A DNA stretch of 23,651 nucleotides from positions 1-23,651 of IMG/VR virus record IMGVR_UViG_3300044614_001392. One strand, given 5' to 3'. Position 1 is the first letter of the stretch. The number at the start of each line of letters is the position of its first letter. Source of the stretch: a virus. The position numbers and the translations under genes are program-made. The notes below the pieces were generated by a model. It made no database searches and was not told where the DNA came from. It saw nothing but the letters and a program-made list of their open reading frames with translations. Positions 10,701-14,557 of this stretch are shown one piece after another.

Positions 10701-10718
10701 AATAAATTAGTATATTTG
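10688..10718 (+). promoter_or_regulatory. Promoter of structured RNA 1
   Basis: CTTG at 10688-10691, a 19-base spacer, and TATATTTG at 10711-10718. The -33 element lies within the last codons of the nuclease gene. Transcription should begin near 10723, right at the structured RNA. Confidence 0.7.
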
Positions 10719-10722
10719 CAAC

Positions 10723-10821
10723 ATTGTTACGGTTCGACATTAAAGTAACATAACCTTATTGACCCATTTAACCGAGTACAGAAGTCGAACCCTGTACGAA
10801 GTTAGATGGGTTTTATTTTTT
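10723..10821 (+). ncRNA. Structured RNA 1 with kissing loops and U-tract
   Basis: A region of about 100 bases. Hairpin 1 is GTTAC (10726-10730) with GTAAC (10745-10749). An 11-pair stem, ACCCATTTAAC (10762-10772) with GTTAGATGGGT (10801-10811), carries at its tip a second hairpin, GTACAG (10776-10781) with CTGTAC (10792-10797). The two loops are complementary over 8 of 8 bases: GGTTCGAC (10731-10738) with GTCGAACC (10784-10791). A T-rich run (10812-10821) follows directly. It could be a small RNA ending here, or a leader controlling the gene at 10822 by attenuation. I cannot match it to a named RNA family. Confidence 0.6.
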
Positions 10822-10971
10822 ATGAAATCCTACATCATTTACTCACCCAACGGTAAGAAACACACACTAACTGCCGAAAGTTTCTACCATGCGGTTCAAA
10901 TCGCAAAAAAATCAGATAATTATCTATTTGCAGAGGCCGATTATTTTAAACTTAATACCGAACGCAAATGA
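10822..10971 (+). CDS. 49-residue protein below structured RNA 1
   Basis: A small protein (MKSYIIYSPNGKKHTL, then AESFYHAVQIAKKSDN) with a short beta-alpha pattern and no known family. I start it at ATG 10822, directly after the T-run, because an in-frame start at 10759 would make the structured RNA coding. The lack of a normal leader is odd: if the RNA upstream terminates, this gene needs readthrough. It overlaps the next gene by four bases (ATGA). Confidence 0.55.
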   Translation: MKSYIIYSPNGKKHTLTAESFYHAVQIAKKSDNYLFAEADYFKLNTERK

Positions 10972-11522
10972 AACAGGAAGAAAATTTTGTCAATCAACTG
11001 CACCTTAAATTTGCAAACTTTTTTGAGGTGCAACGCGAAGTTTGGAGCGAATGCGGTACAAGGCGCATTGATATGTTATTGTCAATACAAGGAAAATATC
11101 ATTTCGGTATTGAATGCAAAGCACCCGACAAAAAACGAGGTGAGCAAATAGGCAGATACATTCAACAAGCGCATAGTTATACACACCTAAAATGGAAGTA
11201 TCGCAATGACATTAGCGTACAAGTGCCGGTGTTTATTTGCCCTGCGCTATCTTACAAATATTTTATATTAAACGAACATGAGGTTGTTATTGATGGCAAA
11301 AAATATCATCAAGACCGACACTCACAACTGCATTCACACCACACAATTAACGGTATGCTTGGAGTGTGGAATGTTGGCGAGGTGCGCAAAACTGAACTTG
11401 GTTTTCAATTTTCAATGAACAATAAGCCGTTTTATGAGCATAAGTCATACAATAACACCATCATATCGAGAGTACACGAAATCAACTACAACACCTACAT
11501 CGAACGGCTATGCAACCAATAA
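10968..11522 (+). CDS. PD-(D/E)XK nuclease-like protein
   Basis: A 184-residue protein whose first third shows a nuclease core: a helix, RRIDML with D35, then a strand ending in IECKAPD with E49-C-K51, and a helix KRGEQIGRYIQQA. This D...ExK order is the restriction-endonuclease-like fold. The middle and C-terminal parts (DRHSQLHSHHTI and the Asn-rich end) have no known motif. The strand before E-x-K and the Gln-containing helix after it support a DNA-cutting role. It lies between the recombination genes and the primase-like gene. The target structure is unknown. Confidence 0.65.
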   Translation: MKQEENFVNQLHLKFANFFEVQREVWSECGTRRIDMLLSIQGKYHFGIECKAPDKKRGEQIGRYIQQAHSYTHLKWKYRNDISVQVPVFICPALSYKYFILNEHEVVIDGKKYHQDRHSQLHSHHTINGMLGVWNVGEVRKTELGFQFSMNNKPFYEHKSYNNTIISRVHEINYNTYIERLCNQ

Positions 11523-12385
11523 CATTCAACTATTACGATGCCGACATCAAGAGCAGCATACCGCTTGGCAATGTTACGCTTGAATATTTTATTAATGCTA
11601 TACGCAATCCAAAGATAGACATTAAGCACATTTTTGAGCGCATACGAATAGCCGAGGAAGTTGGTGACATGGCAACAAAGCAAGCATTGAAATCAAAGCT
11701 ATATTCATTCACTCCGTGCGTTTATGTACAAGGCGCGCGAAAGTATGAAAACATCAAGCATTGGACTGGGTTACTTGTGTTGGACTTTGACCACTTGGAA
11801 GTTGATTACGCGGTTGAGTTTAAGTCATACTTGTTTGATGAGTACAAATTCATCATTGCTGCATGGCTATCGGCATCACGGCATGGTGTGAGGGCATTGG
11901 TAAAAATACCGCAAGCGAAATCGGTTGAGGAGTTCAAGCAATACTTTGCTGCGATTGAGCGACACCTTAACTGCTACAATGGTTTTGATAAAGCACCAAA
12001 AAATTGTATTTTGCCCCTCTTTTTTTCTTACGATGCTGAAATTTTACACCGTGATAACGCTCAAACTTGGGATGAGAAGTACATTGAACCAATACCGCCA
12101 CCTGTTAAGCAGTATATTATCAATGACAAAACATCGGCAGTTGAGCGCATCATTGCCAAGAAAATAAACATCATAGTTGATAGCGGACATCCTCAACTAC
12201 GTGCCGCAGCGTATTTACTTGGAGGTTATGTGGGAGGAGGCCACATAGACCATTCGGATGCGGTAAGTATTATTCACAACTTAATTGAAAGCAACGCATA
12301 TTTGAGCCAAAAAGCAAGTATTTACAAAAAAACTGCGGTACAAATGATAAACAAAGGAGTTAACCAACCAACTTATATTAAATGA
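11510..12385 (+). CDS. BT4734-like primase / VirE-N-type protein
   Basis: A 291-residue protein. The N-terminal domain (about residues 50-190) has YENIKHWTGLLVLDFDHLE followed by FIIAAWLSASRHGVRALVKI, the pattern of BT4734/VirE-N-like domains related to archaeo-eukaryotic primases: an acidic LDFDH pair, then S-x-S-x-x-G-x-R-x-L-V. The C-terminal third (HPQLRAAAYLLGGYVGGGHIDHSDAV) resembles the PriCT helical domain that follows such primases. It is followed by a primase-helicase gene, so the two probably prime and unwind the phage origin together. It overlaps the nuclease gene by 13 bases. Confidence 0.75.
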   Translation: MQPITFNYYDADIKSSIPLGNVTLEYFINAIRNPKIDIKHIFERIRIAEEVGDMATKQALKSKLYSFTPCVYVQGARKYENIKHWTGLLVLDFDHLEVDYAVEFKSYLFDEYKFIIAAWLSASRHGVRALVKIPQAKSVEEFKQYFAAIERHLNCYNGFDKAPKNCILPLFFSYDAEILHRDNAQTWDEKYIEPIPPPVKQYIINDKTSAVERIIAKKINIIVDSGHPQLRAAAYLLGGYVGGGHIDHSDAVSIIHNLIESNAYLSQKASIYKKTAVQMINKGVNQPTYIK

Positions 12386-12386
12386 T

Positions 12387-12417
12387 TTTGAATATTGAAA
12401 TATAAATTATACATTTG
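12387..12417 (+). promoter_or_regulatory. Promoter of structured RNA 2
   Basis: TTTG at 12387-12390, a 19-base spacer, and TACATTTG at 12410-12417, all just after the stop of the primase-like gene. Transcription should start near 12422, at the first hairpin of the structured RNA. Confidence 0.75.
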
Positions 12418-12421
12418 CAAG

Positions 12422-12550
12422 CATCGGAGTAACGAACCGATTTTACATAGATTGATATAAAACATTAGAAGTCCTAATAGTTAAGTGCAAGGTGTCAATC
12501 CCTTGCTTGCTTCGTAAGCAAACTTAACTAATAGGACTTTCTTATTTTTT
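12422..12550 (+). ncRNA. Structured RNA 2, perfect three-way junction
   Basis: A 17-base outer stem (12470-12486 with 12522-12538, a single A-A mismatch) encloses two hairpins with no unpaired base at the junction: GCAAGG (12487-12492) with CCTTGC (12501-12506), and TTGCTT (12507-12512) with AAGCAA (12516-12521). The first loop, TGTCAATC (12493-12500), is complementary to GATTGATA (12450-12457) upstream, eight pairs with one G-T. A leading hairpin, ATCGG (12423-12427) with CCGAT (12437-12441), comes first, and a T-run ends the region. The plan repeats that of RNA 1: promoter, hairpin, long stem with a loop that pairs upstream, T-run, small gene. Confidence 0.65.
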
Positions 12551-12558
12551 AAAACATT

Positions 12559-12744
12559 ATGAAAAATACAAAAACAAAACAACAAAGATTAGATTATTTT
12601 GCTGGGTTAGCAATGCAAAGTTTGATTTTAAAATCAAAAGAAAACGCCCATTTGTTAGACAAAGTCAGCATAAAACAAATATGTTTTATGTCAATTCAAT
12701 TTGCAGAAGAAATCATTAATCAAATCGACAATGGAAAAATTTAA
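12559..12744 (+). CDS. 61-residue protein below structured RNA 2
   Basis: A small Lys-rich helical protein (MKNTKTKQQRLDYFAGLAMQSLI) with no recognised family. It starts 8 bases after the T-run of the structured RNA and overlaps the helicase gene by 14 bases. It may be a regulated leader gene of the replication operon. Its position parallels the 49-residue gene below structured RNA 1, although the two proteins are not visibly alike. Confidence 0.55.
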   Translation: MKNTKTKQQRLDYFAGLAMQSLILKSKENAHLLDKVSIKQICFMSIQFAEEIINQIDNGKI

Positions 12745-14305
12745 AAAACCCGAATCAAACCCATTGCTTAACCCTGTTGACTACTTCAACTTTCACGGCT
12801 CATTCGTGTCAATATTTGATGGGGTAAAAAAAGTAAACATCAAGTCCGAAACTGAAATATGTTTGCAACACCCAGACAACCTCGACCCAAATGAACTGAA
12901 TAAAGTCACGTTTACACTTAACAAAAACAATGTTGTTGAGGTGGTCAAAAAAAACGATTATCAACTTGCCGTGGGTGCGAAGTTGTCAAAGTTTATGTTG
13001 CTATCTGCCGTTAAATTCAAAGGTGATAATTTCGCAGCTATGTCATACGTTCACTTTACGCTGATGAAATCCGAAATACCTTACATTCGGGTAGGTACTG
13101 ATTATTTTAAATTGATTGATAAAAAAGACCGATTTGGCTCACACAATCGATTGCTCAAACCTTGGAAGAAAGATGAAATCAAACAAGACCACGGAAAGCA
13201 ATTGTTGAACATGATTTTTAAATTTGATGATTTCACTATTTACCCAGATAACATCACTTACAAACCTGTGCTTAACAACTGCTATAATTTATATGCAAAA
13301 TTTGCACACGATAAAGCTATTGATGATATTGAACAAAATAACATTCCTGTTACAATGGGATTGATGAACCATATTTTTGGCGAACATTTAGAACACGGTT
13401 TGAAATACATGAAAATTTTGTATCAGTACCCGCGACAAATTGCACCTGTATTGGCACTTGTTTCTTCGGAGCGTGAAACAGGTAAGACCACATTTTTAAA
13501 TTGGATACAGATGTTATTTGGCGAAAATTCAACACTTATTAACCCATCCGACTTAACATCGAATTTTAATGATGCGTATGCGACAAAAAACATCATTATG
13601 ATTGATGAAACTACCATTGACAAAGTGCATGCTATTGAAAAATTAAAATCATTGGCAACGGCAAAAACAATATCGGTGTCGCAAAAGTTTGTGAGTCATT
13701 ACTCCGTACCTTTTTACGGCAAAATTATTCTTTGCACGAATAAAGAAAGTGATTTTATGCGTATAGATGAAGAAGAAATACGTTTTTGGGTGCGAAAAAT
13801 TAAACCTATTACCGGGAAGAAAAACACCAACATCGAAAATGACCTTAAAAACGAAATACCAAAATTTATTAAATACTTATTGCAACTGCCTGAAATAGAT
13901 TTTAGCAAATCGCGCATGGTATTCACCAAGGAAGAAATAATGACCGAGTCGTTAGAAATAGTTAAGGAAGAAAGCAAAAGCCAATTACGCAAAGAAATCG
14001 AATATCTATTTATTGATTGGTTTGCTAACAATGACAATATCGATATGGTTGAAGTAACGGCAAAGGACATTAAAGAAAAATGGTTTGGCACTAACAATCA
14101 AATTTCAATCAGTTACATCCGCAAAGTTTTAAAGGATGAAATGAAAATGGTCAATTTGGAAACAAAAAAGTACAAAGGGTTTCCAGATGCCAATTCGACC
14201 TCGCAAAAGACAGGATTGCCGTTTGTGTTCACAAATCCTTATCGAGTTTATAATGAGGATGTTAGGAAAAATAAGGCATCAATCGAGGATGCTGTTGATT
14301 TCTAA
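12731..14305 (+). CDS. Phage replicative primase-helicase, DUF5906 type
   Basis: A 524-residue protein. The ATPase core includes a Walker A-like ERETGKT (residues 247-253), Walker B IIMIDET with D292 and E293, and a sensor strand GKIILCTNK. This pattern is that of superfamily 3-like helicases (DUF5906) that follow primase domains in phages and plasmids. The first Walker A glycine is replaced by Ser (246), which I believe is common in this branch. The C-terminal part resembles a winged-helix DNA-binding domain (DIKEKWFGTNNQISISYIRKVL). I chose ATG 12731; an upstream in-frame start at 12701 lies in the 61-residue gene. It would unwind DNA, perhaps at the AT-rich region just downstream. Confidence 0.8.
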   Translation: MEKFKKPESNPLLNPVDYFNFHGSFVSIFDGVKKVNIKSETEICLQHPDNLDPNELNKVTFTLNKNNVVEVVKKNDYQLAVGAKLSKFMLLSAVKFKGDNFAAMSYVHFTLMKSEIPYIRVGTDYFKLIDKKDRFGSHNRLLKPWKKDEIKQDHGKQLLNMIFKFDDFTIYPDNITYKPVLNNCYNLYAKFAHDKAIDDIEQNNIPVTMGLMNHIFGEHLEHGLKYMKILYQYPRQIAPVLALVSSERETGKTTFLNWIQMLFGENSTLINPSDLTSNFNDAYATKNIIMIDETTIDKVHAIEKLKSLATAKTISVSQKFVSHYSVPFYGKIILCTNKESDFMRIDEEEIRFWVRKIKPITGKKNTNIENDLKNEIPKFIKYLLQLPEIDFSKSRMVFTKEEIMTESLEIVKEESKSQLRKEIEYLFIDWFANNDNIDMVEVTAKDIKEKWFGTNNQISISYIRKVLKDEMKMVNLETKKYKGFPDANSTSQKTGLPFVFTNPYRVYNEDVRKNKASIEDAVDF

Positions 14306-14440
14306 AAGTAATCTTACTAAAATTACTATTACTAACTAACTATATGATAATCAGCAAAGTAATAAATTCGCAAAAAGTGAACATAACTACGGTGTTTTTT
14401 CGCAATATAAGAAACGTGGGAGTTTTCCGTATTTCTTTAT

Positions 14441-14557
<117 letters not shown>

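Follow-up and report, generated by a model that had tools for sequence, protein, structure and literature searches.

A structured RNA between two phage replication-region genes belongs to a mobile, covarying RNA family and is a candidate promoter-plus-attenuator cassette

A virus record of 23.65 kb (the window, by which the whole analysed stretch of DNA is meant) carries a strongly structured region, RNA 2, which lies together with a 61-aa small gene between a BT4734-like gene and a DUF5906 primase/helicase gene. The locus raises the question of whether this is a phage RNA in its own right and, if so, on what it would act. To judge from promoter type and from protein relatives in Flavobacterium and Cellulophaga phages, the source is a Bacteroidota phage. 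An earlier note, made from the sequence, had described here a promoter, a leading hairpin, a 17-base stem, two stacked hairpins, a loop complementary to an upstream strand, a T-run and a small gene, all of which are found in the sequence or its fold (Table 1). The unit occupies 12387-12551 on the + strand, with 8 nt between the end of the T-run and the ATG of the 61-aa gene. Its promoter elements are separated by a 19-nt spacer and match the Bacteroidota -33/-7 (sigma-ABfr) consensus (PMC7366714), the -7 box of which covers -12 to -5 in Flavobacterium (PMC9723704); transcription is expected to start near 12422. Each arm of terminator stem P2, AGTCCTAATAGTTAAGT/ACTTAACTAATAGGACT, has 17 nt, forming 16 pairs and one A-A mismatch in the window and 17 pairs in relative L020. 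In the predicted fold P2 closes a three-way junction, with P3 and P4 stacked and zero unpaired junction bases. The MFE is -38.5 kcal/mol (z = -5.4), and none of 200 shuffled sequences reached as low a value.

Table 1. The two RNA units of the window, their neighbouring genes, and comparable units in cultured phages (positions are those of the window, or of the phage record named)
Feature	Position	Strand	Evidence or remark
RNA 1 unit, ending in a T-run	10711..10821	+	sequence, plan finder, A2 alignment
RNA 1 promoter box TATATTTG	10711-10718	+	
RNA 1 P1 leading hairpin GTTAC/GTAAC	within 10711..10821	+	
RNA 1 leader-loop helix, GGTTCGAC with GTCGAACC	10731-10738 with 10784-10791	+	
RNA 1 terminator stem	10762-10811	+	
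49-aa small gene after RNA 1	10822..10971	+	variable slot
BT4734-like (VirE N-domain) gene, conserved upstream neighbour	11510..12385	+	PF08800, E 7e-14
RNA 2 -33 promoter element TTTG	12387..12390	+	sequence; consensus from PMC7366714
RNA 2 -7 promoter element TACATTTG (TAnnTTTG)	12410..12417	+	sequence
RNA 2 P1 leading hairpin ATCGG/CCGAT, loop AGTAACGAA	12423..12441	+	A1 alignment: GC/AU/CG compensated pair within helix
RNA 2 leader-loop helix, 5' strand GATTGATA	12450..12457	+	complementary to 12493-12500; five compensated versions among relatives
RNA 2 A/U-rich linker TAAAACATTAGA	12458..12469	+	comparable linkers in 21/25 representative units
RNA 2 terminator stem P2, 5' arm	12470..12486	+	folding; 10/16 pairs changed on both sides, 100% paired
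RNA 2 P3 hairpin GCAAGG/CCTTGC	12487..12506	+	folding, A1 alignment
RNA 2 P3 loop TGTCAATC, leader-loop helix 3' strand	12493..12500	+	pairs 8/8 with GATTGATA upstream
RNA 2 P4 hairpin TTGCTT CGT AAGCAA	12507..12521	+	folding, A1 alignment
RNA 2 terminator stem P2, 3' arm	12522..12538	+	folding, A1 alignment
RNA 2 T-run, predicted intrinsic terminator	12537..12550	+	sequence; kept in relatives
61-aa small gene, optional neighbour	12559..12744	+	no family match; missing from RNA-only relatives
DUF5906 primase/helicase gene, next conserved gene	12701..14305	+	PF19263, E 4e-18; phrog DNA primase
Unit in Flavobacterium phage 11b (AJ842011.2)	33621		GTTATTA TT CGGGCAGG TC TAATAAC, terminator loop CCTGCCCG; before PHG11b_62
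Unit in Croceibacter phage P2559S (NC_018276.1)	33901		GTGCAG/CTGCAC, weaker, 6 bp
Unit in Polaribacter phage P12002S (NC_028763.1)		minus	GGTCGTAG/CTACGACC; before annotated primosomal protein

The pairing that the earlier note had expected to persist in relatives clearly does so. In alignment A1, which holds 14 sequences of the RNA 2 class including the very different L060 and L062, 94.7% of cells are paired and 19 of 41 pairs are altered on both sides, a conservative count because MAFFT left some leader-loop rows slightly off register. The leader-loop helix itself occurs in five compensated versions: GATTGAT/GTCAATC, GATTCAC/GTGAATC, GCTCAATA/TGTTGAGC, GCTTAAC/GTTAAGC and CTCTAAC/GTTAGAG. 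The RNA 1 class (alignment A2, 26 sequences) is 98.1% paired, with both-side changes at 17 of 30 pairs, and its leader-loop helix of 8 bp, which comes in the three versions GGTTCGAC/GTCGAACC, GGTCTCAC/GTGAGACC and GATTCCAC/GTGGAATC, is 100% paired. For each alignment none of 500 column shuffles matched the covariation score, and sliding the partners out of register lowered pairing from 95-98% to 26-47%. In the paired columns of both classes G-U takes up 57 cells (19 + 38) against 4 (4 + 0) for A-C, so the structure was selected as RNA of the + strand. This tolerance of G-U speaks against a DNA element (a replication origin, cruciform or recombination site), a reading that the inverted repeats adjoining the primase gene might invite; the host-type promoter ahead of the unit, the T-run behind it and the many non-replication neighbours count against it as well, and it is hardly credible. 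The phage RNA class that had been suggested is strongly supported, its elements being conserved, covarying, strand-specific, phage-associated and of many members, and its existence is near certain.

RNA 1 is a separate class from RNA 2 built on the same principle. What had been called one plan for both extends to the promoter, the leading hairpin, the pairing of the terminator loop with the leader, the T-run and the following gene, but a three-way junction is missing from RNA 1, and the leader strand that pairs with the terminator loop is part of the leading-hairpin loop in RNA 1 and follows the hairpin in RNA 2. The two units, earlier described as flanking the primase region, lie on either side of the nuclease and BT4734-like genes, and the small gene and primase come directly after RNA 2. 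A joint covariance model, as once proposed, is unsuitable because the RNAs belong to two classes: searched against the record of the window, model R2 picks up RNA 2 and the reverse strand of RNA 2 alone, and in records with RNA 1 only it scores weakly or not at all. Models R1 and R2 each give one hit per record, not counting weak hits that are partial or on the reverse strand. A three-way junction together with loop-loop pairing is familiar from another phage RNA, the phi29 pRNA, where the pairing is intermolecular and works in packaging; here it lies within one RNA, and other classes have no junction.

A plan-finder script, which asks for nothing more than a TAnnTTTG box, a long terminator hairpin followed by a T-run, and a pairing of 7 bp or more between leader and terminator interior, picked out exactly RNA 1 and RNA 2 in the window when run in its MFE version. 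Its refined version gave 144 hits over all loci (1.45 Mb), a raw count inflated by overlapping loci; the number to use is 53 unique hits, against 3 in an equal amount of dinucleotide-shuffled sequence (an earlier version gave 124 against 9), with a few of the 53 visibly spurious; about 50 distinct units are represented. False positives such as TAATAGC, L167, with no ORF after them or on the non-gene strand, were discarded. Among the strong hits in long record stretches and the window, 25 of 28 lie directly 5' of a same-strand ATG ORF; this stricter run lists RNA 1 of the window and misses RNA 2, whose imperfect T-run and mismatch fail the cut-offs. Chromosome stretches fetched for comparison were unsuited as an AT-rich background. 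In 25 representatives, hand-picked so that their helix lengths describe the set and are not an independent test, the unit's own leader-loop helix has 6-12 bp (mean 8.1, against 4.7 across classes and 4.8 with shuffled leaders). In some rows of RNA 2 the pairing given by the script is CGAAGTAA/TTGCTTCG, an alternative complementarity that lies outside the covariation result.

Further classes were seen. RNA 3, recognised by GTTGTGTAGGAGCAAC in 20 contigs, pairs GTAGGAG with CTCCTAC (L175, L178, L183, L198, L214-L231), and the slot behind it is exchangeable, taken by various DNA methylase-like and other small genes; in L215, from a 75-kb contig, the motif looks like a chance coding match, with neither promoter nor terminator around it. 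A fourth class (L036, L038, L040, L041) has a longer terminator, GCCCTGAGAGGGCTGCG...CGCAGC...TCAGGGC, which looks multi-branched, and the pairings GTGGAATC/GATTCCAC, GTCGAAGC/GCTTCGAC and CGGTTAGAG/CTCTGACCG. The units of L010, L046 and L044 have no leading hairpin, the 5' end itself pairing with the loop over 11-12 bp in L010 and L046 and 9 bp in L044. Leader-peptide attenuation is not general, a short leader ORF (MKIFKNPIIH...) being open in L010 and broken in L046.

The position of the units is fixed: they nearly always lie between one gene's stop and the following gene's start, the upstream stop, where found, 0-48 nt before the promoter and the T-run 9-26 nt before a same-strand ATG. The genes that follow are diverse. 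RNA 2 mostly precedes the primase, itself the next gene in L019, L022, L024, L030 and L034, or its small neighbour, and is also found before a GIY-YIG gene and before two further, unrelated genes. Family support exists for the downstream GIY-YIG gene (L192, PF01541) and a C5 methylase (L175, PF00145); the others include the 61-aa ORF, the primase, the 49-aa ORF and sub-cut-off hits to DnaJ (L021) and PDDEXK-like (L039) proteins. RNA 3 precedes many different genes, a large part of them DNA methylase-like (named from their N-termini, except L175). The proposal that replication genes are controlled therefore suits most RNA 2 units but not the varied neighbours of the other RNA 2 units, RNA 1 and RNA 3. 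The gap that follows the primase gene in the window contains, at 14440-14490, a nearly perfect palindromic AT repeat, TTACTATATATAATATATATATATATATATATATATTATATAGTAGTAG, which is possibly a replication origin or a very strong hairpin.

The diversity behind RNA 3, and the six downstream families of RNA 1 behind mostly one upstream family (24 of 33), would suit a promoter-terminator boundary used chiefly by homologous recombination as a landing site, for swapping the cargo genes behind it, the fold mainly insulating transcription. This has been proposed for PeSLs (promoter early stem-loops), which, as far as they are described in PMC4503421 (citing Arbiol 2010 and Comeau 2014), are mobile cassettes of T4-like phages with an early promoter and a terminator-like stem-loop, linked to gene swapping. 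The present units likewise are small and mobile, combine promoter and stem-loop between phage genes, and show varied downstream genes and presence or absence at one junction. They differ in their order (promoter, RNA, terminator, gene), in having a covarying leader-loop helix and several sequence classes, and in their sigma-ABfr-type promoter and Bacteroidota-phage relatives, in place of a T4-type phage and T4 early promoter. Recombination would leave unexplained why a compensated leader-loop helix is selected across unrelated sequences, and as the whole account it is improbable, though gene swapping and attenuation could both be functions of one cassette.

The mobility of the unit is seen directly at the junction between the BT4734-like gene and the primase, for which 78 relatives were fetched by primase (query: the part at 12731-14302) and 43 by BT4734-like protein. 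Four main states occur: nothing (7-8 nt), as in L004-L007, which are ~99% identical in their primase and BT4734-like proteins; the small gene only (L002, L003); RNA only (L019, L022-L025, L030, L034); and RNA with the small gene (the window, L020, L033 and others). The L002 junction reads TTAAATGATT-ACATTATG, and the window carries 166 nt more there. From these states it follows that promoter, RNA and terminator go together as a unit that does not depend on the small gene, and from the absence of this unit in the near-identical L004-L007 that control through it is dispensable. The small gene, earlier counted as part of the unit, is present in the window but is no fixed partner, since the two are gained and lost independently. 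A toxin-antitoxin pair of RNA and small gene was rejected on the same grounds, the downstream gene moreover not being constant. In L042 and L069 an extra ORF (~100 aa) stands between the BT4734-like gene and the RNA 2 unit, a further gene slot.

Gain and loss without neighbour genes, and the single copy of each class per phage, would also fit an autonomous small RNA gene (an "RNA moron") between operon genes, whose stable, compact product would target RNAs or proteins of host or phage in trans, transcription of the downstream gene coming from promoters further upstream. Bacteroides does have intra-operonic sRNAs with their own start site and intrinsic terminator (e.g. BTnc069, PMC7366714), which differ from the present units in that the latter are phage-borne, hold a conserved leader-loop pseudoknot and recur before varied genes. 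A compact intergenic position would suit an independent sRNA too, and some unpaired segments of A2, around ACATTATAG, CATAA and TATTG, are strongly conserved. Its terminator would, however, cut an operon of replication genes; the units sit on the gene strand just before a start codon; and the pairing strands vary freely with compensation, so that these strands are not a conserved trans seed. Such a trans-acting RNA is the main and a serious rival to a cis-acting attenuator, possible but rather doubtful.

Between RNA and gene there is no TAnnTTTG box, so that the gene behind the unit, in RNA-only phages the primase itself, can be transcribed only by read-through from the cassette or from an upstream promoter, which favours a cis-acting attenuator. 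An intrinsic terminator is predicted between promoter and start codon, and cis control of the next gene appears the best fit to the position. The chances are about even that RNA 2 is a member of a mobile, phage-borne family of promoter-plus-attenuator cassettes in which the leader-loop helix tunes read-through. The host-type (sigma-ABfr) promoter, if active, would give a leader of 90-130 nt folding into a long intrinsic terminator, which would halt most transcripts 10-26 nt before the next start codon. Pairing of the terminator's apical loop with the 5' part of the leader would make the defining pseudoknot or kissing helix; in the emerging RNA it could form ahead of the terminator's 3' arm and then enclose the 5' arm, and the share of transcripts reading through into the next early gene could then depend on folding order, on the speed of RNA polymerase or on a bound factor. 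When prefixes were folded without pseudoknots, the leader-loop helix was best at 82-92 nt for RNA 2 and 76-82 nt for RNA 1, and the terminator won once its 3' arm was complete, which suggests that folding order may set the outcome. Prefixes from the window also form a weak predicted hairpin, ATTAG/CTAAT, over the 5' arm, which is not common to the L060 and L062 rows of A1.

In their promoter, structured leader and intrinsic terminator before a start codon the units are like transcription attenuators and other cis-regulatory leaders, but they have no universal leader peptide, no known ligand and no clear antiterminator of the mutually exclusive kind: it is the 5' leader with which the terminator loop pairs, compatibly with the terminator, and a ligand or protein site shared by all was not found. 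A structured RNA right after an early phage promoter also recalls HK022 put, which suppresses pausing and termination (PMC9378689) and is a nascent-RNA antiterminator acting on polymerase for downstream terminators. The conserved element here has a terminator of its own at the end and pairs with the loop of that terminator, and Rfam 15 finds no family above gathering threshold in the whole window (a permissive search of 12300-12650 raised just two hits far under the cut-offs, snoR31 with 23.9 bits on the opposite strand and SIB with 14.8 bits); a put-like role is very unlikely. As for the cassette reading, it may tentatively be extended to a widespread, undescribed class of control RNA in Bacteroidota phages, in which a helix between leader and terminator loop would form first and enclose one terminator arm, so that termination depends on folding order, and which would use many unrelated, mostly non-matching pairing sequences and travel as a ready-made cassette. 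If the leader-loop helix does set termination, this would be a new way of building an attenuator. How Bacteroidota phages control their early genes has, to our knowledge, received little study, and a cassette that is defined by its structure and recurs ahead of genes for replication, nucleases and DNA modification offers a direct handle on it.

BLASTN of RNA 2 against 50,697 phage records gave no DNA match, tblastn of the primase against phages none, and the exact RNA 2 motif was absent from 84,980 genomes. Models R1 and R2 hit none of 198 genomes from the phylum of a distant relative, weak evidence as the sampled stretches are GC-rich, and a tRNA/tmRNA search gave none. The plan finder detected no unit in Flavobacterium 6H, Bacteroides B40-8 or Cellulophaga phi18:1 and phi12:1, unconvincing hits only in lotta8-1 and none with pairing in FPSV-S1; a low-threshold run on isolate phages gave mostly noise. 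The plan is present in three cultured phages, Flavobacterium 11b, Croceibacter P2559S and Polaribacter P12002S (Table 1), which makes it testable at once. In P2559S (L234, NC_018276.1, 33901-34000) the annotated start of gp48 (33955) falls within the cassette RNA, and an in-frame ATG just past the T-run, giving a 64-aa protein, is the likelier true start.
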